Source of the DNA: Cercospora beticola
Lineage: Eukaryota > Ascomycota > Dothideomycetes > Mycosphaerellales > Mycosphaerellaceae
Direction: 5' to 3'
NCBI RefSeq assembly: GCF_033473495.1
Contig: NC_088935.1
Span: 5,022,001-5,086,000, forward strand
DNA length: 64,000 bases
Shown here: positions 3,418-57,584 of the stretch, piece by piece
Numbering within the stretch: the stretch's first letter is position 1
Layout of the letters: each line of letters starts with the position of its first letter
Notes under the pieces: model-generated
Told to the model about the DNA's origin: nothing
Database searches by the model: none
Seen by the model: only the letters and a program-made list of their open reading frames with translations
Program-made: the position numbers and the translations under genes

Positions 3418-4030
3418 CCTGTCAATTAAGCTGCAAGCCAAGCCTTTGCCAATGCTTGGTCGCGAATGTAAGTGAAGAAGTGGAGGCGGCAGTGGAGTCT
3501 GACTCTGATCAAATGATATCTGTTCCTCCTCAAGAAGATTCTCATCCCAATAAAGCTACACCGCGAGATATTTCGGTCGAGGTGACGTAGAGGTATACGT
3601 ATGCGTGTGCGTGTCCTTGCGGTTAAATCTGAGCGACAGGCCTGGACCCTTCTTGCCCTGTCTCGGTCTCGCAAAAGTCGCGCTTTCTAGTTTTTGACTT
3701 CAGTAGAGTTCTAGCTTCCCTCCATGACCCTCGGGAAAGGCAACATCATGCTTTCTACCAAACATCAGCGTCCGGGTGGGAAGGATATGCTGGTTGCTAA
3801 GTATATTCCACAGTGGCCGAATTGCGGTATTGGGCCAGTCGAATGACTGTATAGAAACACCGCATTCCCACATGATCCTGAGCTGACTCTAGAACACGAG
3901 ATATCTCTTCTGCACCAGCATCGCGAAAAGAAGAAGAACTCGGCCCGGAATCTGACACCACAGCTCGCTTCACAGAAAGCTAGCAAGAATTCCTCGAGGA
4001 GTCCACCACAAGGCAGACAGCGCTGAGAAG
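3418..4030. other. Intergenic before the RNA array, possible decayed unit
   Basis: No protein gene is evident. At about 3811-3850 a stretch (CAGTGGCCGAATTGCGG, then GGGCCAGTCGAATGAC) resembles the conserved 5' box of the array units with an insertion. It may be a decayed extra copy, but I could not find the matching 3' arm. Confidence 0.35.
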
Positions 4031-4040
4031 CATTCATATA
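4031..4040 (+). promoter_or_regulatory. CATTCATATA box, first of the array
   Basis: The same box recurs at 4596, 5438, 5724, 6019, 6291, 6579 and 6871. Each lies 31-32 nt before the AACG start of its unit. Constant spacing beside variable flanks suggests a TATA-like promoter element for each RNA gene. Confidence 0.65.
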
Positions 4041-4062
4041 GGGCTTCATATGCCTCATCATC

Positions 4063-4221
4063 AATGATCGTCACTGGCGAATTGGGCGAGTCGATAAGTC
4101 GTCAGCATCAGCCATGGTGCTGACGCTCGACAAGACTGCGGGAACTTCTTCTGCTCGAGGCGAAGGCGCTCATGAAGAATGGTTTGGCCAGGGTCGTTCA
4201 CTGTCTAGTGGCGGTTGTTTT
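4063..4221 (+). ncRNA. Array unit A, putative structured RNA
   Basis: The terminal stem pairs 4063-4077 with 4205-4219; all 15 positions pair, counting G.U. It includes T.G in place of C-G at position 3 and a T-A pair at position 13. An internal hairpin of nine pairs (4101-4109 with 4116-4124, loop AGCCAT) is the longest of the array. The upstream box CATTCATATA is at 4031-4040. A T-run ends at 4221. Gene status is inferred from structure and signals; expression is not shown. Confidence 0.72.
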
Positions 4222-4340
4222 GCCTTTTGATCTGACCTTTGCAGTCGCGAGGTATCTTTGCCCCTTCGCATCGTTGGCACCTTTCATTCACTTGCCTCGC
4301 TGTATCTAGCACTTATATTCTTGTTGCGTTCCGACCTGGC

Positions 4341-4499
4341 AACGAGCGTCACTGCGAACTGGGTGAGTCGGTAAGTCGTCCAATTCTCGATGGTCGACAA
4401 ATTTGCAAATCGCTCCTGCCGCTGAGCCAACAAGAAACGCGTGGCTCTCTCGAAAGGCGTGCGAAGTTTCAGTTCCAGTTCTGCAGTAGCGATTGTTTT
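4341..4499 (+). ncRNA. Array unit B, putative structured RNA
   Basis: The start block is AACGAGCGTCAC and the 3' arm is GTAGCGATTGTT before the T-run at 4496-4499. Two of the first 12 pairs are mismatched, so this is one of the weaker terminal stems. The middle hairpin pairs GTCG.CCA with TGG.CGAC. A six-pair third hairpin joins 4424-4429 (GAGCCA) and 4442-4447 (TGGCTC) around an A-rich loop. The upstream box is less well kept (CACTTATATT). Confidence 0.66.
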
Positions 4500-4626
4500 G
4501 CTTCTTTCTTGCTAACTTCTGCTTCTCGCTGGCAACAAGGAGGTCACATTGGTCGTCTTCCGGATCCCTTTCTATCTATGGATACTGGTGTCCAGCATTC
4601 ATGTTGTCGTGGACTCCCTGAGCAAC

Positions 4627-4781
4627 AACGATCGTTACTGGCGAACTGGGTGAGTCGGTAAGTCGTCTGAATCCGGTTGCTCGACAAAGTTGCAGCTGTT
4701 TATCCCTGCTCAGCAACGACAAGTACGAGGCTGCGTGGGAATGCGAAAGCAAGCTCTAGTTCTCTGGTGGCGATTGTTTTT
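4627..4781 (+). ncRNA. Array unit C, putative structured RNA
   Basis: This unit is close to consensus. The 5' arm 4627-4641 pairs with 4764-4778 at all 15 positions, with several G.U pairs. A run of five T follows (4777-4781). The upstream box CATTCATGTT begins 31 nt before the start. TGGCGAACTGGG, just inside the 5' arm, fits the Pol III A-box pattern TRGCNNAGYNGG with one mismatch. The third hairpin pairs CAGC with GCTG around an A-rich loop. Confidence 0.72.
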
Positions 4782-4899
4782 GCTTCTCTTTTGCTGACTT
4801 TTACATCCGCAGGCAACAAGGAGGAAGGTCATTTCATTATTCTCCTGTACTAATCGCTCGCGCTTAGCATTGACATAGTGATTATTGACACCGTCTACT

Positions 4900-5064
4900 A
4901 ACGACCGTCACTGGCGAACTGGGTGAGTCGGTAAGTCGTCAGGTCGGATCACAGCTGATGCCCGATTAAGCTGCAAGTTTCTTGTCCCGTTGAAGCAATA
5001 GAGAACATAAGGCTTCTAAGGAATCGAAGGCATGCCTTCCGAGTCCTCCAGTGACGACTGTTTT
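4900..5064 (+). ncRNA. Array unit D, putative structured RNA
   Basis: The 5' arm AACGACCGTCAC faces GTGACGACTGTT. Two of 12 pairs are broken, but T-A replaces T.G at position 9. The tRNA-like second hairpin pairs GTCGG with CTGAT around a seven-base loop ATCACAG. The third hairpin pairs GAAGC with GCTTC around an A-rich loop. The T-run is at 5061-5064. Confidence 0.68.
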
Positions 5065-5187
5065 GCATCCCAGAAGCTGACACTTTTGCACTCGCGAGCG
5101 AAAGATCTTTCTTCTCGCTACCCGAATTTTGCAAACGAGCCGCTGATTCTGTATAGCGTTTATATAGTCCTTCAGTGCTCGACTTCC

Positions 5188-5352
5188 AACGATCGTTACC
5201 GGTGGATTGGATGAGTCGGTAAGTCGTCAGGTCCTAACAAGATCTGGATGCTCGATTAAGCTACAAGTTCCTTCTCCCTCCGAAGCAACACAAAACACGA
5301 GGTTGCGTCGAGATGGGGCTCTGCAAGCTCTAGTTCTCCGGTGACGATTTTT
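5188..5352 (+). ncRNA. Array unit E, putative structured RNA
   Basis: The 5' arm 5188-5202 pairs with 5338-5352. Here the inner end is CCGG against CCGG, four Watson-Crick pairs where other units use T.G and G.T, so both sides changed together. The second hairpin looks like an anticodon arm: AGGTC and GATCT around the seven-base loop CTAACAA. The third hairpin pairs GCAAC with GTTGC. TTTATATAG lies about 27 nt upstream. The arm itself ends in five T, the candidate terminator. Confidence 0.73.
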
Positions 5353-5469
5353 CTTTTGGACGCTCTTCTAACCTTACTCCTTGCGTTCGCAAGCGGAACA
5401 GCATCACTTTTTCTCGACGATAAGTCACCCTAAGCAGCATTCATATACCCCTCCCTATATTCACCGAGT

Positions 5470-5644
5470 AACGATTGCTACTGGCGAATTAGCTCAATCG
5501 ATAAGTCGTCATATGCCGTCGAGGCTGATTGATGCTCGATAAAAGCTACGAGGTCTTGCAGGTCGACGAGGCAATAGACTATGCCCTCCGATTTGCCAAA
5601 GCCCATGTATCTACTAATTCCTAGTAGCGATTGTTTCGTTTTTT
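5470..5644 (+). ncRNA. Array unit F, putative structured RNA
   Basis: The 5' arm 5470-5484 (AACGATTGCTACTGG) pairs with 5621-5635 (CTAGTAGCGATTGTT) at all 15 positions. C-G, T-A and T-A pairs stand where the consensus has T.G pairs, the clearest compensatory set in the array. The next bases, TTAGCTCAATCGATAAG, resemble a tRNA D-arm. The upstream box is at 5438-5447. A three-T run is followed by six T at 5639-5644. Confidence 0.74.
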
Positions 5645-5755
5645 GCCTCTCCCATCTCAACCCAAGCATCGCCTCCGACAGCGCAAACGCTTCTTTTGCT
5701 TATGTGCTTTGTCTAACTTCTGGCATTCATATACCTGCTCTATGGTCACTCCCTC

Positions 5756-5911
5756 AACGATCGTTACCGGTGAATTGGTCAAGTTAGTAAGTCGTCTATC
5801 ACCAAAGACGCTCGACGGATCCCGCGGTTGTGGAACTGCATCAGGTACTAGGACTTACGTCTGATGGATCTCTACTTCTGCGCGCTGCAGTTCGCTGGTG
5901 GTGATTGTTTT
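5756..5911 (+). ncRNA. Array unit G, putative structured RNA
   Basis: The 5' arm 5756-5770 pairs with 5895-5909 at all 15 positions, with C-G at position 13. The second hairpin pairs GTCT with AGAC. The third hairpin pairs CATCAG with CTGATG around a long loop. The upstream box CATTCATATA is at 5724-5733, 32 nt before the start. Four T end at 5911. Confidence 0.73.
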
Positions 5912-6050
5912 CTTTTGCATCCCCAGCCCAAGTTTTGTGTTGACGGGCAAAGAGGAGCTAGTGCTTGCAATCTGATGCCCCCCTTTTTTTTCCCTTGCAC
6001 GTAGAGGCTAGATTTCAGCATTCATATTCTCACGTACCTTTCTATCTAGC

Positions 6051-6209
6051 AACGATCGTTACTGGCAGACTAGCTGAGTCGATAAGTCGTCACGCTCGAA
6101 CGACGCTCGACAGCTTGTAGAACATTCGTATCGGATATGCGACTTGATACGCTGTCGGGATTGCGGATTATCTCAGGTTCTGGTCCTCTGGTAGCGATTG
6201 TTTCGTTTT
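6051..6209 (+). ncRNA. Array unit H, putative structured RNA
   Basis: The 5' arm 6051-6065 pairs with 6188-6202 at all 15 positions. The second hairpin pairs GTCGT (6086-6090) with ACGAC (6100-6104). The third pairs CGTATC (6127-6132) with GATACG (6146-6151). The upstream box is CATTCATATT at 6019-6028. Three T and then four T (6206-6209) follow the 3' arm. Confidence 0.73.
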
Positions 6210-6322
6210 GCTCCTCCACTTTACTCTTTTGTGGATTCATGTGCAAGTAGTGGTTTTCCCTTTTATTCCTTACCTAGCCTCAGTAGGCAGCATTCATGTA
6301 TTCATTCCCATGCTCGGCCGTT

Positions 6323-6479
6323 AACGATCGCCCACTGGCAGGTTAGTCAAGTCGGTAAGTCGTCAATCATGCTTGACGCTCGACAAAGCTATAGAGTAAG
6401 GATCTGAACAAGGCAAAGAAACATGCTCGATCAGGTTTTGCACGCTGTCCGCTACATCTTCCCGGTGGCGATTTGTTTT
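6323..6479 (+). ncRNA. Array unit I, putative structured RNA
   Basis: The 5' arm carries an extra C and the 3' arm an extra T relative to other units, so the terminal stem keeps 15 pairs with one bulge on each strand. The second hairpin pairs GTCAA (6362-6366) with TTGAC (6373-6377). The upstream box is CATTCATGTA at 6291-6300. Four T end at 6479. Confidence 0.7.
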
Positions 6480-6609
6480 GTCCTCTCTTTTGCCTTTCTA
6501 ACTCTTACTCTTTGTATTTTGCTGGCGGGCATAAGCTGTCCCTCTTGATATTTCCTTCCATCTATCCCTAGAATCCAGCATTCACATACTCCTTTACTGC
6601 TCACTCCCC

Positions 6610-6771
6610 AAGGATCGTCACTGGCAGGGTTAGTCAAGTCGATAAGTCGTCAGACCCAATTATGGTTCACGCTCGACGAAGCTACAAGGTTTCGCGCTCC
6701 AATTAGGCATCAAGACTATGCCTTTGAAATAGTTCGACTTCAGCCAGCTATAATTCTCTGGTGGCGATTTT
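6610..6771 (+). ncRNA. Array unit J, putative structured RNA
   Basis: The start block is AAGGATCGTCACTGG, changed at position 3. The 3' arm CTGGTGGCGATTTTG pairs with it except at the outermost base. The third hairpin pairs AGGCAT (6705-6710) with ATGCCT (6718-6723). T-runs occur at 6768-6771 and 6779-6782, so either could end the RNA. The upstream box is CATTCACATA-like at 6579-6588. Confidence 0.68.
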
Positions 6772-6902
6772 GGTGTTCTTTTGCCTCTCCAACTCTCCCT
6801 TTCCGCATTCTTCCTTCCACGCATAAGCTCTCCCTCTCAATCTTTCCTCCCCGTAACCCCTAGACCCCAACATTCATATTTCCACCCATCGTTGAACGAT
6901 TC

Positions 6903-7061
6903 AACGACCACCACTGGCAGGGTGAGTCAAGTCGATAAGTCGTCAGCTTTTCGTCTGATGCTCGACGAATAGCCGGAAGTTCCTGAGACTCGAAGGCAGC
7001 AGGTTGTGCCTCGTAGTGCAGTGCTGTTTGCAGCGAAGTCCTCCAGTGGTGATTTGTTTTT
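6903..7061 (+). ncRNA. Array unit K, putative structured RNA (last unit)
   Basis: The 5' arm AACGACCACCACTGG faces CCAGTGGTGATTTGTT. An A-T pair replaces the usual G-C at position 8 and C-G pairs replace G.U further in. One mismatch and one bulged T remain. The third hairpin pairs AGGC with GCCT. The upstream box is CATTCATATT at 6871-6880. Five T end at 7061, after which the periodicity stops. Confidence 0.7.
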
Positions 7062-7869
7062 GTCTTTGCCGTCCGTTCCAGCTTGTGCATATCGGGTATT
7101 AAGTTAAAGGAATGCCATTTTGCATTCATTGCATCGTTTTCTTTTTGCTCTTGATTCTTTTCGAATTCTGATATTGAGATGGACATTGATACAACATTGT
7201 GCATCCCCATGAACCTTGTGAAGCTCATGGAGTCCAGGCTAGGAGGATGTGTCAGATCATGTGAAAACGTAAGTGCAGTCATTTCTCGTTCAGTCCTCAT
7301 CCGCTTTGATTCATAACAATGCTATATACGTACAAGAACAAGATTAGCGTCTCATCATCCTCGAGTCTGACATGTCAGGGCCCTCGCATATCAATACTTT
7401 CCACCGCAAACACACGCGTCCATGAAACAGCGAATAGAAACAACAATGCCTGGGTATCGAAGAATGGACCAAACTAATGTAATCAGGTCGTTGTCGTATC
7501 GCTCATCGCATCGTTAAGTAAAGAATCTCCTCTAATCGTGAGGTATTGGTACAAGAAGTCCACAAGTCATAACTTCGTGTGGAACGCCATCGCAATGCTA
7601 TCGTGTCGTGGTGTCTTTTGTTGTATTGATAATGTTTACTCTCCGTCTCCATAGGATTGGAGTCGTGTCCGGGATCGGCTGCGGAGTTGCCGTCGGGCTT
7701 GTTCAGTCGAAGATTCGCTGTCGAAGCTTTCGCGTTGTTCCTCACGATTGCTCTCGCGGCGCATCGGAGATGGTCCCGGGTTCTTCAGTATGGAATGGCT
7801 GGGGCTGCTGGTGCTGCCACCGGTAAAAGTTGGGCTGCCAGAGCTGCTTTTGCCCTTACCCTTGCGCTC
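7062..7869. other. Intergenic after the array
   Basis: The array periodicity ends at about 7061. The 3' flank of the following minus-strand gene fills the rest. No gene or RNA is recognised. Confidence 0.55.
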
Positions 7870-45459: not shown

Positions 45460-46120
45460 TTCTGGAAATCGGTAAGCTGTAATCAATGTCTGAGCAAGTT
45501 CGGAGCAGCATCGTGCTTGTTGCTGCTGTCGGAGACATAAGCCTGGCACGTTGACTCTAAACTTCAGTGAGCTAGAATTAAATGCCTGGGCGACATCGAA
45601 GCAGCATCGTATCCGTTGATGCGGCTGGAGAGATGAGCGCTGCAGGTTGACTCTGAGAAGTGGTAGGCTGGAATCAACATCTGAGCGAGTTTGAAACAGC
45701 ATCATGCTTGTTGCTGCAGCTGGAAACACAAGCGTGGCAAATTTGACTCTGAAAATCGGTAAACTGGAATGAATGTCTAGGCGACGATGGGCCAGCACCG
45801 TGTTCGCTGCTGCTACCGGAGACATGAGAGCGTAGTAAGTTGACTCTGATATATGAGAAACGGGAATCAATGCCTGGGGGACAACGGAGCAGCATCGTGT
45901 TCGTTGCTACTGCCGGAGGCATGAGCGTCGCAAGTTGACTCTGAAAGTCGGTAGGCTGGGAACAATGTCTGGGCGAGTTCGAACCAGCATCGTGTTCGTC
46001 GCTGCTGCTGGAGACATACAGCGTGGTCAGTTGACTCTGATACTTTAGAAACTAGAATGAATGCCTGGGCGATGCCAGAACAGCATCGTTCTCTTCGCTG
46101 CAGCTGGAGACATTGAAACA
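45460..46120. repeat. 96-bp minisatellite, about 6.5 copies
   Basis: TTGACTCTGA-like blocks recur at 45551, 45647, 45743, 45841, 45936 and 46031, a 95-98 bp period. Each unit also holds CAGCATCGTG, TTGCTGCTGC and GGAGACAT-like blocks. The period is close to 32 codons, so long minus-strand frames cross it, but the frame in use shifts between units and no protein repeat is kept. I read it as non-coding. Confidence 0.85.
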
Positions 46121-47011: not shown

Positions 47012-50000
47012 TCATCTCTTCATTGTATTGAACACATTATTCTCCCGACTCCCAAAGTCGTAGAGCCAAGGAAAGCTTTGCTTGACAAGAGTAGGGTCCT
47101 CATTACCCAGAAGAGCTTCCATCCAATTCTTCATGTCAACAACGAGCTTCTTGACTTCATTATACTTTTCCACCGCAGACCCGAAGTTGGTCGCGAGCAT
47201 ATGTGCCCAACAGCCCTTGCGTTGCCCAATGAGTATGTATATTTCGTCCATGATCCGCATCGATTCGTCAAAGAAAGGGGCTTTGCTGTTCGCGTCAAAG
47301 AGCATGTTCCAGTACGACTGGACTTTGAACAAAGCGTGACGGTCTTTCAGGCCTGTGATCTTCTCATAAGTCTTGCCACAGGTCGGTCTCAACAGGTCGT
47401 GAAGATATCGAAGCTTGTCGGGAATCACGACCATGGGTGTGCCTGGTGCGAAGCGGAAGATTTCGTTCACGACATTGTAGCATTCCCAAGTAGGCCGCCC
47501 GGATGTCTCCTTGATTTTGACGCAAAGCATCTGGGTGCTAGTCAACATGCCGAAGATTTTCTGCATCCAAACAGATGGCATCCCAGTAGTGAAGGACTTC
47601 CAGTAGCGGTTCGGAGCCACAAGATATTCGTCGATGTGCTTGAGGCGCTGGTGTAGCAGGTCAAGCTCGCCTTGAAGCGCTTTGTCGTCGACAGAGCTCT
47701 TCATCATATCATTGAGCGTATCCTCGGAGAGTTTGAGCCAGCTGCCAATCAGCTCGGTTGCGTCGTCCACCGTCAAAGTAGCATCCTGTAGTGGATGATT
47801 GTCTGCAGTCGGAACCATCCGGCGTTGGAGACCAGAATCTGCGAAGTGGCCCTTCTTCCTAGAGCCTAAATCATCGCTGTGAGCGGCCACTCTATGACGG
47901 CAGTCTGTAGTCTTCATAACATACTGTGATGTGGGAGCCAAAGTCGGGGAAGAGGGTGGCGGAATAGTTGGTCCAGCAGAGCCATCATTGATCACGGCTG
48001 TCGGCAGATATCTTGTTTGCAAGATCTGGAGGACTTCTTGTGCAATTGGCTGGTAATGGCGGCTGTCTTGAGCCGGTGTCATCTGAACAATTATGTCCTT
48101 GATGACCTGGAGCTTTGCCACGATATTCGAAACATCTGCCGCGACATTGTTCCTGGCTGAGCCATTCTCGTCGAAGTAATATTCGTCGAAGTCCCTCAGT
48201 CGACGCGCGAACAAGCAAAGAGCGGATTGGCGAGCCCGGATTTCGAAGCCTGTCGTAGCTGCTCGTAGCCTGCTCTCTGAGTCGAGTAGCCAACGTTCCA
48301 TCTTCGCGATGACTTGCTCGATCGTGACATTGGTCAGTGCTCGCAGAGGGTTGTATTCTTTCAAGAGCTTTTGGCACATCTGCAAGCCATCCAGGAACCA
48401 CTCTCGCTCAATGTCCTCCTGGTTCGTGGGAAATGCAATATTGGCCTGCTCGATCGCCAATTGTAAGACCAACAATTGCAATAAAACTGGAGCTGTGTCG
48501 TCCGATTTGCGCAGGTGCTCCTTGAAAGATTGCGACGACTGGTTGTGGTATCTCTTGAATACTTGCAGATCCTCTTGCAGTACTTTCAAGTCCTTGGGCA
48601 CTTTGGCTGCAGGAAGTGGCTTGTTCTGTTCCGTGCAAGACCGCAGAATTTGATTGAGGCGATCGGCATTCTGGTAAAGTAGCCCGATGATCTCTTTCAG
48701 GCTTGAGTCTTTACTGCCATCACCGAAGAAGCCGCCTTTTTGCAGCTCAGTGCAATGTTCCAGCGCTTTGTTGCCCATGTCGGATGGATCCATGCTTCGG
48801 AGCTTCGCCTCAATGTACTCGCAGTAGTTCTGGGTCAGAGAAGGCGTCAATCGGTCGATAGGGCCGTTGAATCCCTGTGTCCTCTTTTTTAGGCAGAACT
48901 CGACCATTGATACAAGTTCCGCGCACAGTTTCTTCATGTCCTCCGCGTCGATCGTTTTACGCTCAGCCCACCGAAACAGTTTCATATGACAAGTTCGGCC
49001 CAGTCTCCGAGCTTCTTGCAGCGTCTGTTGGCTCGGGAGAGGCCTCTGCGGCGGCACGCTATGGCTGGCAGGCTGTGGAGCGACAGGCTGCGGGACGGCC
49101 TGCTGAGGGATGGCAGGCTGCACCCCGGCACCGGTGAAGGCGCCCAGCCCCTGCTGTGGGCTCGCCGCAGCAGCCGTCTCCACGAGGCCAAGCGAGGGAG
49201 CGGGGGCTGGAGGTGCCTGCGGAGGCGCTTGCAGGCTCGCCTGACTGAGGAGAGGCATGGCGTCCTGCGCCACAGGGAGACTCTCCACGACATCCTCCAT
49301 GGCTTGCTCCTGGACTTCTGGGGCGCGCCCAGCCACCTCATGCGGAGCATCGTCGAGCATAGCCAGCTCCTGCGACGGAGCGACTGTCTGCTCGATGCCC
49401 TGCATGCCAGTCTCACCCTCAGAAGCTGGCTCGGCAACGGGCATTTCTGCCACATCTGCCATCACCATGTCTTCTGATGGCGCGTTGGTGAGACTGGAGT
49501 GGGCTGAGTGCGCGCCCTCGCCATCGTGCCCGTTCTGCGGCTGGAGACACGCTGCCGTCTCGCTGACACCCTCCATTGGTTGGCTGGGAGGTGCACAGCT
49601 TTGACTTGGCACGGTGTTCTCCAAGTCCACGGGCACGATGCTTCCAGCGGCCGCCTTGACCTTGTTGGCTCGCTCGGCTGGCTTCCAGACACCGCGCCAC
49701 TTGCGATGGAACGCGAGAGGCCGCGGCTTCTTCGAGACACGAGCCTCGGCCTCTCGTGCCTCTGTATACGGCGTTGATGCAGGGCCGGCCTGCTCATCCT
49801 CATGGCTGGGCTCGGCGTGGGTAGAAGTAGCAGAGGGAACCGGAGTGGCGGGGTGTACAGAAGCAGCCGCAGGAATGAGCTCAGACTCCACCTCCGCAAA
49901 CGTGACGTGCTTCTGGCGGCGAGTCTCGGTCGGTGCTGGCGGAGCTGGCTCTGCAGCGGAAGTTGGTGCGAGGAAGGAAGCAGAGGGGGAAGGAGGTTGC

Positions 50001-51832
50001 TCGGAGGCTCCAATAGCCTTGCTTCCAACGATTTCTTGCTCAGGCTCATCGATTGGCTCAACTTGGGTAGAAGTAGCAGAGTTGACAGGAGCGATTGAAG
50101 AAATAGGCTCAGGTTGAGCGGAGACCGAGACATGCTTCTGAGCTGGACGTGGAGACGGCGCTCGCGAGGGTGGTGTTGCAGTCCAATTTGGCTCGTGAGT
50201 GGAGGCAGAGGCAGCCCGACGATGCTCAGAGACTCCAATAGCCTTGCTCTTGACAATGATTGGCTGACGCTTGCTGGTTGGCTCAACGTGTGTAGGAGCA
50301 GCAGAGTTGATGGGAGCAGTTGTAGAGATGGGCTCAGGCAGGCTGGGAACGGAGGCCTGCTTCTGACTGCGGCGACGGGTCGGTGCTGGCGGAGTTGGCG
50401 CTGCATCTGGAATTGGCTCGCGAGTGGAGGTAGAGGCAGGTAGACGTTCCTCGACGACTCTCGTAGGCTTGCTCTTGACGATATTTGGCTGAGGCTTACT
50501 GGCTGGCTCACCATGTTTATCACTGTCGGAGTCCGCCTTTGGTGGCTGAGCAGAGGTCGAATAGATCGGCTTATCAGCAACAGACATGTGACATCTGTAC
50601 ACCCATTTGGCATATTCAATGTCGTATTTCCGCTGCTCGAATCGCTCCTGTTCTGCCTGCTTGCGCGCTGCATGTTCTCTGAGGAGGCGGGAGTTGTGGG
50701 AGGTAACCCACGCTGGATCTGGGCCCCACATCAAACGATCTTCCCAAGGACACTGCATCAGTGCTTGTGGAGTCGAACGTCTGGTTTGCTTGTTGATAAG
50801 TTCCCATCCAAAAGGTGTGCGGATTCTCCAAGGGTGCTGATAGAAGTGGCCTTTAAGCTCTGGACCGTCGCATGCGATTGGCGGTAAAGTCGATTGAACG
50901 GATGGAGCATCTGCCATCTCAGACTCAATGGGTGGAGCATCTTCCATTTCAACATCGGGGACGGTGATCTCTTCAGCAGGTTGACAGGGACGCCACGTAT
51001 TGCCGACGAAGAAGCGGCGAAGCTCAGTGAAGGCGCAGTATAGCTGGTGAACAGTCAGTGTCTTTCGAGGATGTATTCGCAGCCAGCACCAACTTACCAA
51101 GATAACGATAACCAGGCCACAGGAGATACAGATCAAAGCCTCGAACCACCATTGAATAGCAGCGCAGACGCTGGCGATGGTATTGGCGAAGGAGATGAAT
51201 GGGGCGGCGACAGTGCGTGCGACCGCGTGTGCTCCAGCAGCTGCGATGGCCCACAATTTGTGCGCCATATCTGCATTGAAGGTCTGGTTGTACGCAGCGG
51301 TGACGAAATCGGTCACCGCGAGAAGAGAGTTGGCGACAGCGTGTGACATCGTGTTTGCGACGGTCAAACATTGGTGTGTCATGTTCGAGTCGAGGATCTT
51401 GTGGTAGGCGGCAGCGACGAAATCGGCAGAGATGAGATACCGAGCGACGACTGTGCGTGCCACGGCGCGGAAGGTATCCAAGCAAGCTTCTGTTATGTCT
51501 GTGTCGAGGATGTTGTCGTACGCGGTGGTGACAAGATTGGCGAAGATATCAATCGCATCGAGCATCTTGTTGTAACCGGCGGCGACGGAATATGAGAAGG
51601 CAAGAAGCGCATCAAGCAGCTTGTTTTGAGCGGCGGCGACAAGTTCGGCGAAGATGGAAAAGGGGGCGACGACAGTGCGTGCCACAGTGTGGGCGATGGC
51701 CAGAAGCAGCTGCGCCATTTCCGAGTCGAGAATCCTGCTGCAGTTGTCGGCGGCAAGATTGAATAGAATGAGAAAATGGGTGACGACGGCGACGGCGGCA
51801 GTGCGGACGAGGTCCAAGCACTGGTTCGCCAT
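47012..51832 (-). CDS. Giant unrecognised protein with hydrophobic repeats, membrane span and helical C-terminus
   Basis: I do not recognise this protein. The first in-frame ATG is at 51832 (MANQCLDLVRTA); the frame is open further upstream only with non-ATG codons and leader-like sequence. From there it reads ~1,606 codons. Residues ~1-260 hold about six Ala/Val-rich repeats of ~38 aa with the theme FVxAAYxKxLD. A strong membrane span follows (LICISCGLVIVILV). Next is a disordered Pro/Ala/Ser region (~420-1000) with at least three ~70-aa repeats around KSKAIGVSE. The C-terminal ~600 residues look helical and folded (EREWFLDGLQMCQKLLKEYN). A 54-nt in-frame GTAAGT..CACCAG segment (51097-51044) may be an intron. 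It could be an anchored scaffold; no enzyme motif is seen. Confidence 0.72.
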   Translation of the reverse strand: MANQCLDLVRTAAVAVVTHFLILFNLAADNCSRILDSEMAQLLLAIAHTVARTVVAPFSIFAELVAAAQNKLLDALLAFSYSVAAGYNKMLDAIDIFANLVTTAYDNILDTDITEACLDTFRAVARTVVARYLISADFVAAAYHKILDSNMTHQCLTVANTMSHAVANSLLAVTDFVTAAYNQTFNADMAHKLWAIAAAGAHAVARTVAAPFISFANTIASVCAAIQWWFEALICISCGLVIVILVSWCWLRIHPRKTLTVHQLYCAFTELRRFFVGNTWRPCQPAEEITVPDVEMEDAPPIESEMADAPSVQSTLPPIACDGPELKGHFYQHPWRIRTPFGWELINKQTRRSTPQALMQCPWEDRLMWGPDPAWVTSHNSRLLREHAARKQAEQERFEQRKYDIEYAKWVYRCHMSVADKPIYSTSAQPPKADSDSDKHGEPASKPQPNIVKSKPTRVVEERLPASTSTREPIPDAAPTPPAPTRRRSQKQASVPSLPEPISTTAPINSAAPTHVEPTSKRQPIIVKSKAIGVSEHRRAASASTHEPNWTATPPSRAPSPRPAQKHVSVSAQPEPISSIAPVNSATSTQVEPIDEPEQEIVGSKAIGASEQPPSPSASFLAPTSAAEPAPPAPTETRRQKHVTFAEVESELIPAAASVHPATPVPSATSTHAEPSHEDEQAGPASTPYTEAREAEARVSKKPRPLAFHRKWRGVWKPAERANKVKAAAGSIVPVDLENTVPSQSCAPPSQPMEGVSETAACLQPQNGHDGEGAHSAHSSLTNAPSEDMVMADVAEMPVAEPASEGETGMQGIEQTVAPSQELAMLDDAPHEVAGRAPEVQEQAMEDVVESLPVAQDAMPLLSQASLQAPPQAPPAPAPSLGLVETAAAASPQQGLGAFTGAGVQPAIPQQAVPQPVAPQPASHSVPPQRPLPSQQTLQEARRLGRTCHMKLFRWAERKTIDAEDMKKLCAELVSMVEFCLKKRTQGFNGPIDRLTPSLTQNYCEYIEAKLRSMDPSDMGNKALEHCTELQKGGFFGDGSKDSSLKEIIGLLYQNADRLNQILRSCTEQNKPLPAAKVPKDLKVLQEDLQVFKRYHNQSSQSFKEHLRKSDDTAPVLLQLLVLQLAIEQANIAFPTNQEDIEREWFLDGLQMCQKLLKEYNPLRALTNVTIEQVIAKMERWLLDSESRLRAATTGFEIRARQSALCLFARRLRDFDEYYFDENGSARNNVAADVSNIVAKLQVIKDIIVQMTPAQDSRHYQPIAQEVLQILQTRYLPTAVINDGSAGPTIPPPSSPTLAPTSQYVMKTTDCRHRVAAHSDDLGSRKKGHFADSGLQRRMVPTADNHPLQDATLTVDDATELIGSWLKLSEDTLNDMMKSSVDDKALQGELDLLHQRLKHIDEYLVAPNRYWKSFTTGMPSVWMQKIFGMLTSTQMLCVKIKETSGRPTWECYNVVNEIFRFAPGTPMVVIPDKLRYLHDLLRPTCGKTYEKITGLKDRHALFKVQSYWNMLFDANSKAPFFDESMRIMDEIYILIGQRKGCWAHMLATNFGSAVEKYNEVKKLVVDMKNWMEALLGNEDPTLVKQSFPWLYDFGSRENNVFNTMKR

Positions 51833-52679
51833 GTCGGCGGCGGTAAAGAAGGTGCTGATAACACAGTCGAAGTTCGCGGTGGTGGTGGGTACTGGATGTA
51901 CCGAAAGTGTGCTGTGCGAAGTTCGAGTTGTGTTGTCGAAGAAGAGAGAGGGCGGAGGAAGCTGGTGGGTGGAAATGGCTGGGTTGTAGCTAGCGCGAGG
52001 TCGCGCGTTTCTTGGCAGCGAAGTGAAGTTCGCTCGACGGCGACAGTATTCACGCGCGAGCGTCACGACGCTTTACTGTCCACAAACACCTCGGGTTCAC
52101 CAAAGTCACGATTCTGCGCTACTGCGGAACACTGTGCATGCCTCGCGCTGCACCAAATCGATTACATTGCGGCCAGGAGACAGGCGTAAACAGTTGCTTT
52201 GTCGAAACACATTCACAGTGGCGGCTTTGTGTTTCTTTTCTGCTGCATGATTGGCCACAATGGCCGCATACATGGGTTGAACGACGGCGAAGATCTTCCA
52301 ACCTGCCAGTAAGTTCTCTTCTCTCCAATTTGTCGGATCTGAGATTATAATCTTTTGTGCTGTTACGTGTATATGCGATATCGGTGGCGAATATTCGATC
52401 ATCCAGGATGCTGCAGCTCTTCAAATTTCCCGCATGAAGAGCCAACGTCCAGCTCGAGCACCACAGCAGCTTTGCTGGTGCCATACTTGGAAAATATCAT
52501 ACTGATGAAGCTCCCGTGAGCTATGATTCAAGCTTTGGCTTCGCCCGGTGTCCAGGGCCATCCACAGCCTCTTTGGGACGCAGACAATCAGATCTCACGG
52601 AGCCATTGTTCGATGGGTCTGAGGCCTTATTCAGCACTCTTGTGCGCCAAACAGGAAACAACCCAGCCTTGGAATTCCT
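51833..52679. other. Intergenic between the two giant genes
   Basis: This is the 5' leader and promoter of the 47012-51832 gene and the 3' flank of the next. A GTG-initiated extension of the upstream frame runs to 52066 but has leader-like composition. Confidence 0.5.
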
Positions 52680-55600
52680 TCACGATGCGTTCCAGAGCCT
52701 TCTGGGGGTGATAGGAGCCCCTCTTCCTCTCCCACGAGCGGAGTGCCCTCCCCGGTCGCCTCGCGACCGCGATGAGCGATCAGGGACCCTCCTGCTTCCA
52801 GTCTCATGGCCTCGTCCTTCTAGGATACGTCCCGCTTCATTGCTGACACGCTCCTGTCTTGCGGCCACGTCTGCTCCTGTTTCTCTGTCATAAGAGTTCC
52901 TAGCCCTTCCTCTTCCTCGCGCCCCGCGCGTTTCGTCCGCACCTCTTCCACCTCTCGCGCCTAGACCTGCTTGTTCCGACTGTCTATGAACCACTTCTAC
53001 TTGGCTCTCGGCATCTTGCTCAAGGACTTGCGAGCCTCTCGATCCACCACGATCAGAACGTGTTTCACGATGCCCGGCTTCAGCTCGGCCTCTTGCACGC
53101 CCGCTGCCCCTTCTATTACCTTCATTCATAGGAGTCTCAGTATCTCGTGTGCCGCGTGGACGTGTAAGTGGTGGCTCAGGCGCAGTCTGATCGCCTCTCT
53201 GCGATACAGGCCTGCCACGTCCTCCACGATCGCCGCGCCGGCCGCGTACGGAACCATCTCCTCGGCCTCCATATGTTTCACGAGGATCTCTACCATCGTC
53301 TGAGACAGCATCACGCCCACCTCGTCCAGCAAACCCACCACGCTGGCCTCGCACACCCCGGTCTCCTCGACCTGCTCTTCCACGAGGAGCAGGTGGCGGC
53401 TCCAAGGCAAACTCTCTCTCCGGACGCACAGCTCCAAGAGGTCTAGGCAATTTGCTGCCATGGAACCACGAGTTCAACATAGCATTGGCTTCGTCGTCAA
53501 CTCCAGCAGACGAAACAAATCCTCGCCAATGCGATGTTGCGCCTGGAACAGGATTTGAAGCATTGTCGTAGTACACCCACACAACAGCGTTCGTGTTCGA
53601 CTCATCTTGTTCTCCATAAAGGTCCACAGTAGCCGTGGTGCTGTTGCGACTATCATCCACGTCTCTAGTAACCACGCCCAGACGAAGGTCGATGGCTGGT
53701 AGCGGGAACACATGACCCTGCGCAATGAAGTCGAACACGATTTGGAGCTTTCGTGGAGTCCAGTCATTGAGTGCCCTGGCCTCGTTCCAATGCTGTCGGT
53801 AGATTTCCGAATCTAAGCCATGCTCAAGCTCGATGGCAGAAAAGCGCGAAAACAGGAATGCCGCGTACTCAGACGTCGGCTCCATCAAGTTCTCTGGGCT
53901 TTTCGTTGGCACTGGCCGCAGAGCCAACATGTCGTCAAATTCGATGAACATCTTCCTAAGCATTTCTTCGGCGTCTCCAGGACTTGGGATGCGCCCGTCA
54001 AACATGAGGTTATCTTGCGCCTCCAGACAAGTCTGCAAAGACGTCAACAAAGCTCGAGCGCCGCACAGGTGGTTCTGGTCGTCAGTCGCAGAAGGAATCT
54101 TGCCGGCTTCAGTCCACCTGCGAAGATTTGAGATCGCTTCAGCCGGGCCATCCAAGAACCAGCGCTGATTGTGCCGCTCCTGCATCCAGGTGTACACGTC
54201 TTTGAGTCCGTTCTGCAACCTCTCAGTCCGCTCTCGTACCTTTCTAATCCCCTCCACGTCAACAGGCGCAGTGCAGACCTCCGCCAGTCGATCCGTGCCA
54301 GTCCGATGGTACTCCAGCTGGTCCAGTATGAGTGCCATACTTCTCAGTTCTGCAGGCACAGTTTCGCCACAGGCTTTTTTGTTGATTGCATCGAACTTAT
54401 CCTCAATGGCTGCCTGGGCGGCCTCCAGCTGAGGGACATTGTTGTATCTGCCAACGAAGCTTCCCTGTTTCAATCCGACCCAGCAAGCAACGCTGGCATA
54501 CAGCTGTGCCTGCTCGAAAGTGACCTTTGTTTGATCAAGCTCGCTGCTCCGCTCGCCTAAGTCAAGCAAACACTGAAGCACGTAGTCCAGAGCTTGATTA
54601 GCGGTACGCTCGAGGTCATTGCACTGTACAACGCTTTGGCCTCCCGGCCTGGCTTGCTCCGATCTCTTGCGTTCGAGACTTAGCAGCAGCAACATGCTCT
54701 CGAATTCGCTCCGGATATCGTTCAATCTGCTCAATGGTGATATCAGCACTTCGTGGCTGATCTGGCCGTCCTGCACTACTACCAAGTCCGACGGTGAAGG
54801 CCAAACTCGTACGGCAGACCTCGTACCTCCGGTTGAATTTGTGCCGTTGCTCATGTTCGGCTGGCCTGTCTGTGTGGCATGGCCGTTACCCTTGGATCCA
54901 TGCTTGTCGTATACGGACGTGAGGCGCTCGTAGCTGGTCCTCCACCTTTCGAGATCCTCGACGACACTTTGTAACTCACGCTGCAGAGATCTGAGTTCCA
55001 AACCGTCACTAGTCGAGAACTGAGCAGGGAGTGGCAGCGGCAAAGTTCTGTCAGCTTGATGAGTGTCAAAGCTTTCGATGTATTGGCGTTGCCAGAGAGC
55101 TCGTTTCGCTGGATAGTCGCTGGGTTGCCCAGTTCGGGCCTCCTTTGCAGGCACAAGTTGTACTGGGGTCGGTGGCTCAGAGCGTTGCCGAAGTGGACCA
55201 AAGTTGACATTGGTAGGCGTCCTATCGGGAAGAACTTCTGGATCAACCGGCGAATATGTAGGCCCGGTCTTGATGTTCCTCAGTTCAAGCAGCAGAGCAT
55301 CTGCGATCTCGAAGACATGATCAATTTGAAGTCTGGTATGCTCGTCGCTGTAGTCAACAATACTGCTGAGCTCGCTGAGATGTCCTCTGATATCAATCTC
55401 GATCTGCTCAGCGTTGCGGGTGCGATCTGCGCTTTCGAGGAACACGACTTTATCGAGCTGTCTGGCTGCCTCCCAAATGTAGTTCTTCAAGACAGCGATC
55501 TCGTCGTCCTTCGCCACTGCCTGTCCGAAGGCTACTTTTGGCGTGGTAGGAGTTAGACCGGTCATTTTGGAATCCTGTAGCATGTCCCGTGCATTTTGTC

Positions 55601-57584
55601 CAGCGTACTCATTCAGCGATCTTGTGTAATCTGCTCTCTCGAGATCCGATTTCAGAGCAGCAATTTCGGCATGCACTGTCTTCTCCACATCAGCGACCGC
55701 GCGCTGTAACTGTTCGTTTCTGGAGCCCAAGCCAAACAGTTTACCTTGTGCTGCCAGCGGCCACAGTTGAGACTGCAGCTTCCCGTATTCTGCAACAAGC
55801 TTTTCCTTGGAATATGCTCGACCCAAAAGGTACACTGAGTCGAGAATTTGCAGCCGACTTTGGGCCAGCTGACGAACTTCTTTCCGGACAAGCTGCACTT
55901 GATTGAGGCTCCAGCCATCTGAAACGATTTTGCTTGGTCTCGACTTTCTCTTGCCCTTCGTCCCCTGGTGATCTAAGGTCTGCACACGACCGAGAAGTGC
56001 TTTCATCAATCTGTGAGCGTCGTACAAGATCTCATCATCAAGGAAGGCAAGGGTCTTGCGCTCGCGGACGTCCTTCAGTTGCTGGATGCCGACCAGAAGA
56101 TCTGTTTCCGACGATTCGTATTTCCCTTGGTCGAGGGCGTCCCAGGCAATTCTGACATCCAGATGATGAACGAGCTCGCACTCTTGTTCCACTTGCTGCA
56201 ATGCGGTGTCACACCGCGCAGGGTCAATCATTTCCTTGTGGTGTGAGTGCCACAAAATGTCGCAGGCTTGGCTCAAATCGCTCACTTTGGTGAGCCATCG
56301 CTGAAGCATGGCGATGTTGCCCAGAGGTCGTGATATTGCTGCGGTTTCTTCTCGGATGCTAGTCAAGGAAGACCGCGCTTCGTCGGCAAGTGTACGAGGC
56401 GTCGCTGCCACCAGAGATGCGAGAGAGTTGGGCGTATTTGGCAGCTCGGTACCTTCTGTGATTTCCACATCTCGTCTGATGTGCAATGGCTTCTCAAGAC
56501 TCCTGGACCAATAAGGCTTCCAATTCATGTCGTCCAAGCTGGAACTCTCCGAAGCATCGTGCTGAGAATCAATCGCCTCCAGCCGAGGTTCGATATTGGC
56601 TCCTGCTCGCACCTCCTCTTCCTGCAGGTCGTCTCTGAGCACATTCATGAGCCATCTGTCAAGAGGGGCGATCCCTGAAATTGGGGATTCTCTGGCCCTA
56701 CCAGCATTGAGATCGATGCGGTTCATACGTCGACCAGGCTGCCGCATGATCCTGCCCATGTCCACGCCGGAATACATGCTGTCGACGGGAGAAACGTCTG
56801 ATGCCGTTCGATGTCCTTCGAAGCTTCGCAGCTGTGGAAGGTCATTTTGGCTTCCGTCTAAGTGCTCTGATACTGCACTACTGGCACCAAGCGACCTTGA
56901 AGCAGCATGTACAGCCCATCCGAAGTATGTTGCCCAAACGTCGAGCATATGCAACACCTTGCGGAGCAGCATTCCTGGTGTAGAATCCCACAGTTGCCAT
57001 AATACCAGGAGGCCCAGCCTCGGGACTAAATCCAGTAGTCCTCCCAGGAAGTAGCAAAACTCCAGCCCTTTCGATACAAGCATATAAACAACCCTCCCTA
57101 CGCTTCTTCCCCCCTCATCTCCATCACTAATCCCCTCAACCCACCTCTCCCAAACCCACGCGACATACTCATACCCCGCCCATCCCGTCAACAGCACCGG
57201 AACCATAATCAGCCAAAACCACACCCACCCCGCAGCTTCGTAGATCAACAAATTGTTAAGTATGCTCACCACTCCATCAAATGTCCGCCATCCTCTCGAC
57301 TCCTCATCTTCCCTCCCCTCCCTCTCCCACCGTTCCTGCTCCTCATGAAATCTCAAATGTCCATATTCCCATTCCGGTTCCCATGCAGCGTTTCCAAGCC
57401 AGCTTGCTGAGATGCGTTTCCGGCGAGGAGTTCGGATCCAGGGAGAGAGTGGAGAGCGGAGGAGAGAAGGTGTTGTTCCGGAAAAGTTGGTTGAAATTTT
57501 GTTGATGCGGCATTTTCGTGGGGAGGAACGGAGTCGTAGAGGAGATTTTGGGGTGGATGGAGTTAGGGATTCCATTGCTGGCAT
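52680..57584 (-). CDS. Giant unrecognised membrane protein with RGG-rich tail, 1,634 aa
   Basis: I do not recognise this protein. A basic N-terminus (SPLRLRSSPRKCRINKIS) is followed by hydrophobic segments at ~105-135 (GWVWFWLIMVPVLLTGWAGY) and ~165-235 (FCYFLGGLLDLVPRLGLLVL). The long middle (~380-1300) is mainly charged helix. The region at ~1200-1420 seems folded (QRWFLDGPAEAISNLRRW, PLPAIDLRLGVVTRDVDD). The last ~200 residues are Arg/Gly-rich with many RG and RGG repeats (GRGGRDAVSDDGRDPRETYG), typical of RNA binding. A membrane anchor plus an RGG tail suggests an RNA- or ribosome-tethering scaffold, which is inference. It lies upstream of, and on the same strand as, the other giant gene. 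Confidence 0.75.
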   Translation of the reverse strand: MPAMESLTPSTPKSPLRLRSSPRKCRINKISTNFSGTTPSLLRSPLSPWIRTPRRKRISASWLGNAAWEPEWEYGHLRFHEEQERWEREGREDEESRGWRTFDGVVSILNNLLIYEAAGWVWFWLIMVPVLLTGWAGYEYVAWVWERWVEGISDGDEGGRSVGRVVYMLVSKGLEFCYFLGGLLDLVPRLGLLVLWQLWDSTPGMLLRKVLHMLDVWATYFGWAVHAASRSLGASSAVSEHLDGSQNDLPQLRSFEGHRTASDVSPVDSMYSGVDMGRIMRQPGRRMNRIDLNAGRARESPISGIAPLDRWLMNVLRDDLQEEEVRAGANIEPRLEAIDSQHDASESSSLDDMNWKPYWSRSLEKPLHIRRDVEITEGTELPNTPNSLASLVAATPRTLADEARSSLTSIREETAAISRPLGNIAMLQRWLTKVSDLSQACDILWHSHHKEMIDPARCDTALQQVEQECELVHHLDVRIAWDALDQGKYESSETDLLVGIQQLKDVRERKTLAFLDDEILYDAHRLMKALLGRVQTLDHQGTKGKRKSRPSKIVSDGWSLNQVQLVRKEVRQLAQSRLQILDSVYLLGRAYSKEKLVAEYGKLQSQLWPLAAQGKLFGLGSRNEQLQRAVADVEKTVHAEIAALKSDLERADYTRSLNEYAGQNARDMLQDSKMTGLTPTTPKVAFGQAVAKDDEIAVLKNYIWEAARQLDKVVFLESADRTRNAEQIEIDIRGHLSELSSIVDYSDEHTRLQIDHVFEIADALLLELRNIKTGPTYSPVDPEVLPDRTPTNVNFGPLRQRSEPPTPVQLVPAKEARTGQPSDYPAKRALWQRQYIESFDTHQADRTLPLPLPAQFSTSDGLELRSLQRELQSVVEDLERWRTSYERLTSVYDKHGSKGNGHATQTGQPNMSNGTNSTGGTRSAVRVWPSPSDLVVVQDGQISHEVLISPLSRLNDIRSEFESMLLLLSLERKRSEQARPGGQSVVQCNDLERTANQALDYVLQCLLDLGERSSELDQTKVTFEQAQLYASVACWVGLKQGSFVGRYNNVPQLEAAQAAIEDKFDAINKKACGETVPAELRSMALILDQLEYHRTGTDRLAEVCTAPVDVEGIRKVRERTERLQNGLKDVYTWMQERHNQRWFLDGPAEAISNLRRWTEAGKIPSATDDQNHLCGARALLTSLQTCLEAQDNLMFDGRIPSPGDAEEMLRKMFIEFDDMLALRPVPTKSPENLMEPTSEYAAFLFSRFSAIELEHGLDSEIYRQHWNEARALNDWTPRKLQIVFDFIAQGHVFPLPAIDLRLGVVTRDVDDSRNSTTATVDLYGEQDESNTNAVVWVYYDNASNPVPGATSHWRGFVSSAGVDDEANAMLNSWFHGSKLPRPLGAVRPEREFALEPPPAPRGRAGRGDRGVRGQRGGFAGRGGRDAVSDDGRDPRETYGGRGDGSVRGRRGDRGGRGRPVSQRGDQTAPEPPLTRPRGTRDTETPMNEGNRRGSGRARGRAEAGHRETRSDRGGSRGSQVLEQDAESQVEVVHRQSEQAGLGARGGRGADETRGARGRGRARNSYDRETGADVAARQERVSNEAGRILEGRGHETGSRRVPDRSSRSRGDRGGHSARGRGRGAPITPRRLWNAS

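Follow-up and report, generated by a model that had tools for sequence, protein, structure and literature searches.

In the window analysed here, a 64-kb stretch of the Cercospora beticola genome, eleven tandem units occupy positions 4031..7061 of the forward strand, each combining a TATA-like box with a predicted RNA unit (Table 1). They share a 9-base core, TAAGTCGTC, the 11 copies of which start at 4095, 4372, 4659, 4932, 5220, 5502, 5788, 6083, 6356, 6643 and 6936, with a spacing of 273–295 bp (mean 284.1). The initial annotation had placed eleven tandem units here, and this is borne out: against these 11 core copies, no 9-mer in the whole window recurs in a series of more than 3 at a spacing of 200–400 bp once the array is masked, and the maximum is 2 in each of 20 base-shuffled control windows. 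The array is absent from the output of Tandem Repeats Finder for the window. An upstream box, a start block, a TCGA block and a T-run block had also been described, and all four were found at the same positions when the sequence was read again. The upstream boxes in Table 1 were located by such reading, against the family motif cAGc.TTcATATaC. All 11 RNA units score at least 89 bits in cmsearch with the covariance model R1, which was built partly from these same units.

Table 1. TATA-like boxes and RNA units of the eleven-unit array, in window coordinates
Feature	Position	Strand	Basis
TATA-like box, unit 1	4029..4040	+	sequence reading, family motif
RNA unit 1 (P1, A-box-like, P2, variable arm, T-run)	4059..4221	+	cmsearch R1 93.4 bits; in R1 build set
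TATA-like box, unit 2	4308..4319	+	sequence reading, family motif
RNA unit 2	4337..4499	+	cmsearch R1 93.3 bits
TATA-like box, unit 3	4594..4605	+	sequence reading, family motif
RNA unit 3	4623..4780	+	cmsearch R1 105.4 bits
TATA-like box, unit 4	4866..4877	+	sequence reading, family motif
RNA unit 4	4896..5064	+	cmsearch R1 107.1 bits
TATA-like box, unit 5	5155..5166	+	sequence reading, family motif
RNA unit 5	5184..5354	+	cmsearch R1 107.7 bits
TATA-like box, unit 6	5436..5447	+	sequence reading, family motif
RNA unit 6	5466..5636	+	cmsearch R1 89.9 bits
TATA-like box, unit 7	5722..5733	+	sequence reading, family motif
RNA unit 7	5752..5911	+	cmsearch R1 89 bits
TATA-like box, unit 8	6017..6028	+	sequence reading, family motif
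RNA unit 8	6047..6203	+	cmsearch R1 89.1 bits
TATA-like box, unit 9	6289..6300	+	sequence reading, family motif
RNA unit 9	6319..6478	+	cmsearch R1 96.1 bits
TATA-like box, unit 10	6577..6588	+	sequence reading, family motif
RNA unit 10 (interrupted T-run: TTTTGGTG)	6606..6774	+	cmsearch R1 93.2 bits
TATA-like box, unit 11	6869..6880	+	sequence reading, family motif
RNA unit 11	6899..7059	+	cmsearch R1 91.4 bits

The units belong to none of the RNA classes for which we searched. In the window, no Rfam 15 family reaches its gathering score; at an E-value of up to 5, the region 3900-7200 yields two matches, both far below that score, and at up to 1, eight loci of other arrays yield a single below-threshold match, which lies outside the units. 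With no Rfam match to the units even at these permissive thresholds, the earlier impression of an unrecognised family holds. ARAGORN finds no tRNA in the window or in seven further arrays (L009, L010, L011, L017, L043, L044 and L045). Among 67 units of the family, none has the layout of box C/D snoRNAs, with a C box near the 5' end and a D box near the 3' end, and a single one has an ACA near its 3' end, so that the H/ACA class does not describe them. The sole Fungi_SRP match in the genome, C5:1833596-1833863, is the SRP RNA and lies away from the units. GTAAGT was not accepted as a spliced leader or 5' splice site because the G preceding TAAGT is not conserved. The array was likewise not accepted as coding: the ORFs of at least 120 aa over it are just two, of 140 and 146 aa, and the first has no Pfam match. 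Outside the genome, a 21-letter family pattern has no match in viral contigs and two in prokaryote genome contigs (a Latescibacteria MAG and Rhodococcus), which we take as chance, judging by the record titles alone. Among the literature matches listed, no title or abstract opening describes anything resembling the family; some of these listings lack any paper with the word Cercospora, or with the words Cercospora beticola, and have scant bearing on Cercospora itself.

Counting the one in the window, the genome has nine or more such arrays, which together comprise at least 72 units, as counted from pattern searches and the covariance model. The eight further arrays (L009, L010, L011, L017, L043, L044, L045 and L049) were found by pattern search, and a covariance model, the check proposed for the array at the outset, confirmed the same layout in all of them; L009, L010 and L011 had contributed to model building, the other five had not. 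Statistics on fold, promoter, arm and tree refer to 67 units and exclude the five units of L049, while counts of the promoter motif refer to 66, as one of the 67 has no 60 nt of upstream sequence. Excluded from all counts were the weak partial matches L011:1929-1955 and L010:6954-6974, three antisense matches, the L016 rows, which duplicate L017, and L051:14-173, which is the same unit as L044:4814-4973. Over the 67 units, TAAGTCGTC is intact in 41 and has one mismatch in 16, two in 7 and three in 3. The TCGA block, originally regarded as the core, is typical of the window array and of L009; elsewhere, the sequence at this place is variable and often reads CTTG (by eye), and we therefore consider TAAGTCGTC to be the family-wide core.

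Within each of the nine arrays, all units lie on the same strand, and their spacing is fairly constant. In a tree of the units, the arrays cluster, with 13 label changes compared to 44.7 after shuffling, and the tree suggests local duplication as the main route of array growth; L010 is the only array that forms a clade of its own. Not all units are equally well preserved, as two weak ones in L017 score just 16.8 and 23.3 bits (R1). With the covariance model, no unit was found at an E-value of up to 1 in eight bare-core loci (L001-L008), none in 17 further loci (nine of them bare-core, some coinciding with the first eight, and eight next to arrays), and none in L050, a locus chosen for a pair of core-like matches. 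Seven of the nine arrays sit in the outer fifth of a half-contig and two lie away from contig ends; a strong contig-end bias was therefore dropped as a candidate feature of the family. By eye, the ORFs near five of the eight further arrays (all but L043, L045 and L049) look like scattered, unrelated genes, and those of the window have the same appearance. In the window and at these five further arrays, the units fall outside long ORFs.

Each unit spans about 160 bases, and its fold comprises the terminal stem P1 and the hairpin P2, in which the core UAAGUCGUC lies. Over the 67 units, 89.8% of the cells of the predicted stems are paired, compared to 31–49% in slid controls, and 199 cells are double changes, compared to 71.9 in shuffled data, a count that none of 500 shuffles reached; these pair counts are inflated, since the covariance model itself aligned the units to the structure. 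The 36 units outside the model build set are paired in 90.8% of cells. Pairs changed on both sides number 17, compared to 14.2 in shuffled data, and 33 of 500 shuffles reach this value. When P1 strands are swapped, the own strands pair at -19.2 kcal/mol and those from other arrays at -12.5 kcal/mol (own better in 63 of 67 units, p 2e-12); even against strands from the same array, with -17.3 kcal/mol, the own partner is better in 47 of 67 (p 4e-4). Covariation demonstrates the fold of P1 and P2, and the compensatory changes in both imply selection on an RNA fold. Which strand is the RNA can be read from the 303 G-U pairs, compared to 47 A-C mismatches: this excess identifies the + strand. The fold z-score is -2.76 in sense and -1.71 in antisense orientation.

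The units are further accompanied by candidate signals of RNA polymerase III genes. A free search places the upstream motif 34–36 nt before the AAC start in 54 of 66 units, and a search confined to 32–38 nt finds it in 64 of 66. It marks two of the four small-RNA genes scored in this genome: its best place is -28 for U6 (1.2% of random 65-base stretches are as good) and -32 for the SRP gene (1.9%); it was not found at the RNase MRP gene (22% of random stretches as good, with the start taken from the Rfam match) or at the one tRNA-Met gene scored (8.8%). Inside the units, an A box (TRGYNNAR) is present in 51 of 67, compared to 7.35% of random stretches, and the strict form is absent from 16; in the window, 5 of 11 units have G or A as the fourth base of the box, and unit 11 has no match there. 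A T4 or longer run coincides with the unit end, starting at offset -3 or -4, in 56 of 67, a feature that is partly built in because the covariance model ends in a T-run; in the other 11, it lies at most 15 nt past the end or at most 7 nt before it. Taken together, TATA-like box, A box and T-run suggest transcription by RNA polymerase III. The B box of type 2 Pol III genes (GGTTCGANNCC-like) does not belong to this set: GDTCRANNC matches 8 of 67 units, compared to 3.5 (sd 1.9) when shuffled, and four of the eight matches begin 25–29 nt into the unit, too close to the A box. The TCGA block was considered as a B box as well, a reading abandoned in view of the variable sequence at this place in other arrays and the few B-box matches. 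The proposal that the + strand carries genes for structured RNAs is supported by covariation, strand swap, G-U/A-C asymmetry and, with the limits seen at the MRP and tRNA-Met genes, these Pol III-type signals.

P2 is separated from the 3' strand of P1 by an arm of 64–88 nt, the sequence of which is no more alike between copies than that of the spacers. It was considered as a conserved third hairpin, but its fold is just weakly better than that of shuffles and nearly equal on both strands (mean z -0.74 sense, -0.68 antisense), for which reason the arm may be filler. Some individual arms form long hairpins. Compared to the genome, the arm L010:4755-4840 matches only itself, and unit 4 matches only family members and itself, in searches insensitive to targets of about 20 nt.

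Given these features, we lean with modest confidence towards regarding the locus as an eleven-gene tandem array of an unrecorded, putative Pol III RNA family, built from a constant module and a variable arm. Judging from the sequence signals, RNA polymerase III would most likely make a separate transcript from each gene of about 160 nt; the promoter would consist of an internal A box and the TATA-like box some 35 bp upstream, and transcription is predicted to end at the T-run. As covariation shows, P1 joins both ends of the putative RNA and P2 presents the near-invariant core UAAGUCGUC; the two form a constant module, which probably binds a single protein or complex shared by the whole family. 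As the arm sequence is not kept between copies, the family would then combine a single RNP core with a wide range of arms. We can only tentatively extend this to a modular RNA system, in which at least 72 Pol III genes share one constant RNP-binding module (P1 and P2 with UAAGUCGUC) and a single protein partner, and dozens of different arms set the specificity towards RNA, DNA or protein targets, in the fungus or its host; we consider this extension possible, but rather doubtful. If the family is what it appears to be, its 72 or more structured units in a 36-Mb genome would, in our judgement, make it a large Pol III family beyond tRNA, 5S and SINEs, which annotation relying on Rfam would skip, since the units have no match there. 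It would also raise the question of what role a constant RNA module with a copy-variable arm plays in a plant pathogen. The claim can be put to a direct test with the unit coordinates, fold and promoter elements reported here.

Other readings of the same data deserve consideration. The units are unlikely to be microRNA-like precursors, that is, Pol III hairpin RNAs from which Dicer would cut P1 or the arm, yielding arm-specific small RNAs that silence targets. For this speaks that Neurospora crassa milR-1 to milR-4 are Pol III transcripts with a T-run right after the milRNA (PMC3547838), and that milR-1 uses TATA-like elements and has no predicted A or B box; here, too, P1 ends at the T-run, and there are arms with long hairpins. 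As a set, however, the arms are not markedly structured, and P2 and the core are kept along with P1, which is needless for a Dicer substrate. That neither L010:4755-4840 nor unit 4 has genomic target matches is weak evidence against such precursors, because targets of about 20 nt would escape the search.

Less probable again is a regulatory family akin to Plasmodium RUF6, whose RNAs would act, locally or in trans, on chromatin or Pol II genes. With its 15 members, RUF6 is a Pol III RNA family tied to var gene choice, and the placement of seven of nine arrays in the outer fifth of a half-contig would fit such a role; yet RUF6 has canonical A and B boxes (PMC9670795), whereas the units have no B box, two arrays are not near contig ends, and the neighbouring ORFs in the window and at five of eight further arrays look, by eye, scattered and unrelated.

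The tRNA-like A boxes, the T-run and the many diverged copies also recall a SINE-like selfish element of tRNA origin, with copies that turned tandem. We regard this origin as very unlikely, since the B box is missing, the arrays are same-strand and fairly constantly spaced, no unit was found in the loci searched outside arrays (L001-L008 and the 17 further loci), and the compensatory changes reveal selection on an RNA fold. Hardly more credible is an element acting at the DNA level without a functional RNA, such as a TFIIIC-bound boundary array: TATA and A boxes are DNA signals and the arrays lie outside long ORFs, but TFIIIC boundary sites depend on the B boxes that are missing here, and the G-U excess and paired changes in P1 and P2 argue for selection on the + strand RNA. 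Finally, decaying pseudogene arrays of a formerly functional RNA, as the weak L017 units and the large sequence divergence might indicate, are the least plausible of all, given the scores of all 11 window units, even though these helped build the model, and the better pairing of the own P1 partner within the same array.

Among known systems, vault RNA and Y RNA are small Pol III RNAs with a terminal stem that closes them and a 3' T-run, and are present in few copies in known genomes. The units, which have no Rfam match, resemble them in stem and T-run, and we know of no motif common to both. In the same genome, SRP RNA and U6 share with the units a match to the TATA-like motif at a similar distance; they are separate single genes (C5:1833596 and C2:3146896), and the units match neither Rfam model. 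Fungal structured RNAs from comparative genomics are also the subject of PMC8216456 and PMC5640933, and in their main texts, the words tandem, Cercospora and Dothideomycetes are absent, and polymerase III is mentioned once, in the background of PMC5640933, and not in PMC8216456. Plasmodium RUF6 (PMC9670795) is likewise a parasite's family of ncRNA genes that has many copies and Pol III signals, but the Cercospora units have no B box and lie in tandem arrays, a comparison by description rather than by folds. Neurospora milR-1 to milR-4 are four confirmed separate loci for Pol III-made milRNA precursors (PMC3547838): they, too, come from a filamentous fungus and pair a short, here putative, Pol III RNA with a TATA-like element and a T-run straight after the stem, whereas Cercospora has at least 72 related units, arranged in tandem arrays, in which a second hairpin and its core are conserved.

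The related units form a family whose RNA fold, on the + strand, is conserved; it comprises at least 72 units in nine arrays of the same genome. In the window, eleven units are centred on the core TAAGTCGTC at a spacing of 273–295 bp, whereas the longest run of any 9-mer at 200–400 bp spacing is three elsewhere in the window (array taken out) and two in shuffled windows. The tandem array described in the initial annotation is thus borne out, and the positions of its four blocks were confirmed; the output of Tandem Repeats Finder for the window does not contain the array. The family had also been called unrecognised, and this agrees with the searches: Rfam 15 yields no match in the window at gathering score and, at E-values up to 5 (window 3900–7200), just two unrelated low-scoring matches, while a tRNA search of the window yields none.

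A search with the core pattern revealed further candidate clusters in the assembly (36.07 Mb, 10 contigs). The covariance model proposed as a check, here R1, was trained on 31 units from four arrays and recovered 67 units in eight arrays; with the ninth (L049), five of the nine arrays are independent of its training. The total is a lower bound, because both the reading of the genome and the runs of R1 covered only part of it. At E-values up to 1, which are rough because the calibration was short, R1 found no unit in eight loci with bare cores (L001–L008), nor, L017 apart, did it find any in 17 further loci, nine with bare cores (some repeating places of L001–L008) and eight flanking arrays.

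Arrays of the family and other features of the window and contigs
Feature	Position	Units or copies	Remarks
Window	C1:5022001–5086000		
Array in the window	window 4031–7061	11 units	R1
Core (G/A)UAAGU	window 4094–6944	each unit	
Array	C1:4990090–4991384	5 units	R1
Array L010	C2:473055–476148 (L010:3055–6148)	10 units	R1
Array	C2:4874494–4879285	16 units	R1
Array	C9:2284572–2287055	9 units	R1
Array	C5:119494–120746	5 units	R1
Array	C7:2209701–2213473	8 units	R1
Unit-free gap in the C7 array	C7:2210700–2212140 (L044:2200–3639)		~1.4 kb
Array	C4:4134004–4134775	3 units	R1
Array L049	C4:2042393–2044172	5 units	ninth array
96-bp tandem repeat	window 45461–46113	~6 copies	69% matches; overlapping 154-aa ORF without Pfam match
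225-bp repeat	window 50053–50510	two copies	within the 1684-codon ORF
1684-codon ORF	window 47012–52066		− strand; no Pfam match
1634-codon ORF	window 52680–57584		− strand; no Pfam match

That the units encode a structured RNA on the + strand, as first proposed, is supported by double-change cells, strand-swap pairing, folding z-scores and the counts of G-U pairs and A-C mismatches. From the window units alone, RNAalifold predicts a terminal stem (P1) together with a hairpin holding the core (P2), and the outcome on 31 units is the same. In the alignment of 67 units, which is fitted to the structure, 89.8% of 1661 cells are paired, falling to 31–49% when the partner is slid by 1–3 columns, and 199 cells show double changes, compared with 71.9 in shuffles, none of 500 being as high. 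The number of pairs changed on both sides (17 of 25 versus 14.2 shuffled, with 33 of 500 shuffles reaching 17) is a weaker test. The 36 units outside the training set are 90.8% paired, although R1 served both to find and to align them. Two tests are independent of the alignment, with unit ends set by R1. In the first, the P1 5′ strand was matched with 3′ strands of its own and of other units: its own partner gives the better pairing in 63 of 67 units when set against the average for other arrays (p 2e-12), and in 47 of 67 when set against the average for the same array (p 4e-4). In the second, whole units folded against 40 dinucleotide shuffles each have a mean z of −2.76 in sense (z < −2 in 42/67) and of −1.71 on the opposite strand (22/67). 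Finally, there are 303 G-U pairs and 47 A-C mismatches; since these counts are swapped on the opposite strand, the RNA is the + strand.

Within each of the nine arrays, all units lie on the same strand. A tree of the conserved parts (L049 left out) requires 13 changes of array label, against 44.7 when shuffled and a minimum of 7, so growth of the arrays seems to have been mainly local. Only L010 forms its own clade (support 0.998); L011 takes in two foreign units, and the other arrays are mixed. Seven of the nine arrays lie in the outer fifth of a half-contig (fractions 0.02–0.18), one at 0.53 and one mid-contig, and the two C1 arrays are just 35 kb apart. By eye, the ORFs flanking the arrays of L009, L010, L011, L017 and L044 resemble ordinary, unrelated genes, and Pfam matches near the window array include a PLD-like protein, a DUF7514 protein and a protein kinase. 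One window protein is 100% identical to a Cercospora beticola protein and 97% identical to one of C. berteroae, which places the genome in C. beticola or very near it.

A variable arm of 64–88 nt (mean 79) separates P2 from the 3′ strand of P1. Its within-array global identity is 0.593 (shuffled baseline 0.562), compared with 0.600 (0.581) for the 80-nt spacers after the units and 0.728 (0.566) for P1–P2; in the 40 closest pairs, arm and spacer are alike (0.602 and 0.612, p 0.40). The arm sequence is therefore hardly conserved from copy to copy. Strong hairpins occur in single arms (z as low as −5), yet the mean z is only −0.74 and similar on both strands, so that folding does not establish a common third hairpin. 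A genome search with one arm, of a kind that would miss short targets, gave no match beyond the arm itself. A common protein would dock on P1 and P2 with its UAAGUCGUC core, and the arm might serve either as a specificity module or as filler. In each unit the core resembles a 5′ splice site, its first base not being conserved; because of this resemblance, its pairing to the U1 snRNA 5′ end is conceivable.

Upstream, the motif cAGcaTTcATATaC occurs 34–36 nt ahead of the AAC start in 54 of 66 units in a free search, and in 64 of 66 when confined to 32–38 nt. This box is common to two of four small-RNA genes tested: within 60 nt upstream, its best place is −28 at this genome's U6 and −32 at its SRP RNA (starts set by eye), scores that random 65-base stretches equal in 1.2% and 1.9% of cases, and it is absent from the RNase MRP gene (start set by the Rfam match; 22% of random stretches score equally) and from the one tRNA-Met gene examined (8.8%). 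In 51 of 67 units the 45 nt at the 5′ end include an A box (TRGYNNAR), compared with 7.35% of random stretches. In L010 the A box sits ~8 nt nearer the 5′ end in all ten units than in the other arrays, overlapping P1, while the core is unmoved; the promoter element therefore moves independently of the RNA fold. A T-run of at least four begins where the unit ends in 56 of 67 cases, which is partly built in because R1 ends there. From these signals we infer a Pol III promoter of the TATA plus A box type, and they suggest that each unit is transcribed separately by Pol III. The units could alternatively be milRNA precursors: as described in PMC3547838, Pol III transcribes Neurospora milR-1 to milR-4, in which a T-run follows the milRNA; for milR-1, TATA-like elements are present and neither an A box nor a B box is predicted. 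They could also be RUF6-like regulators; RUF6, as presented in PMC9670795, is a Pol III family of 15 members with A and B boxes, and in our family the B box is missing (8 of 67 units versus 3.5 in shuffles). Readings of the units as a selfish element, a DNA element or decayed genes fit the data poorly.

Among the literature matches listed, nothing resembles the Cercospora family; those listed for queries naming Cercospora lack that term, and most subscription papers lay outside the scope. The main texts of two surveys of fungal structured RNAs (PMC8216456, PMC5640933) contain neither Cercospora nor Dothideomycetes nor tandem. Vault and Y RNAs are a further point of comparison for the family. 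Though it matches no family searched, we rate it as belonging to the Pol III structured RNA kind.
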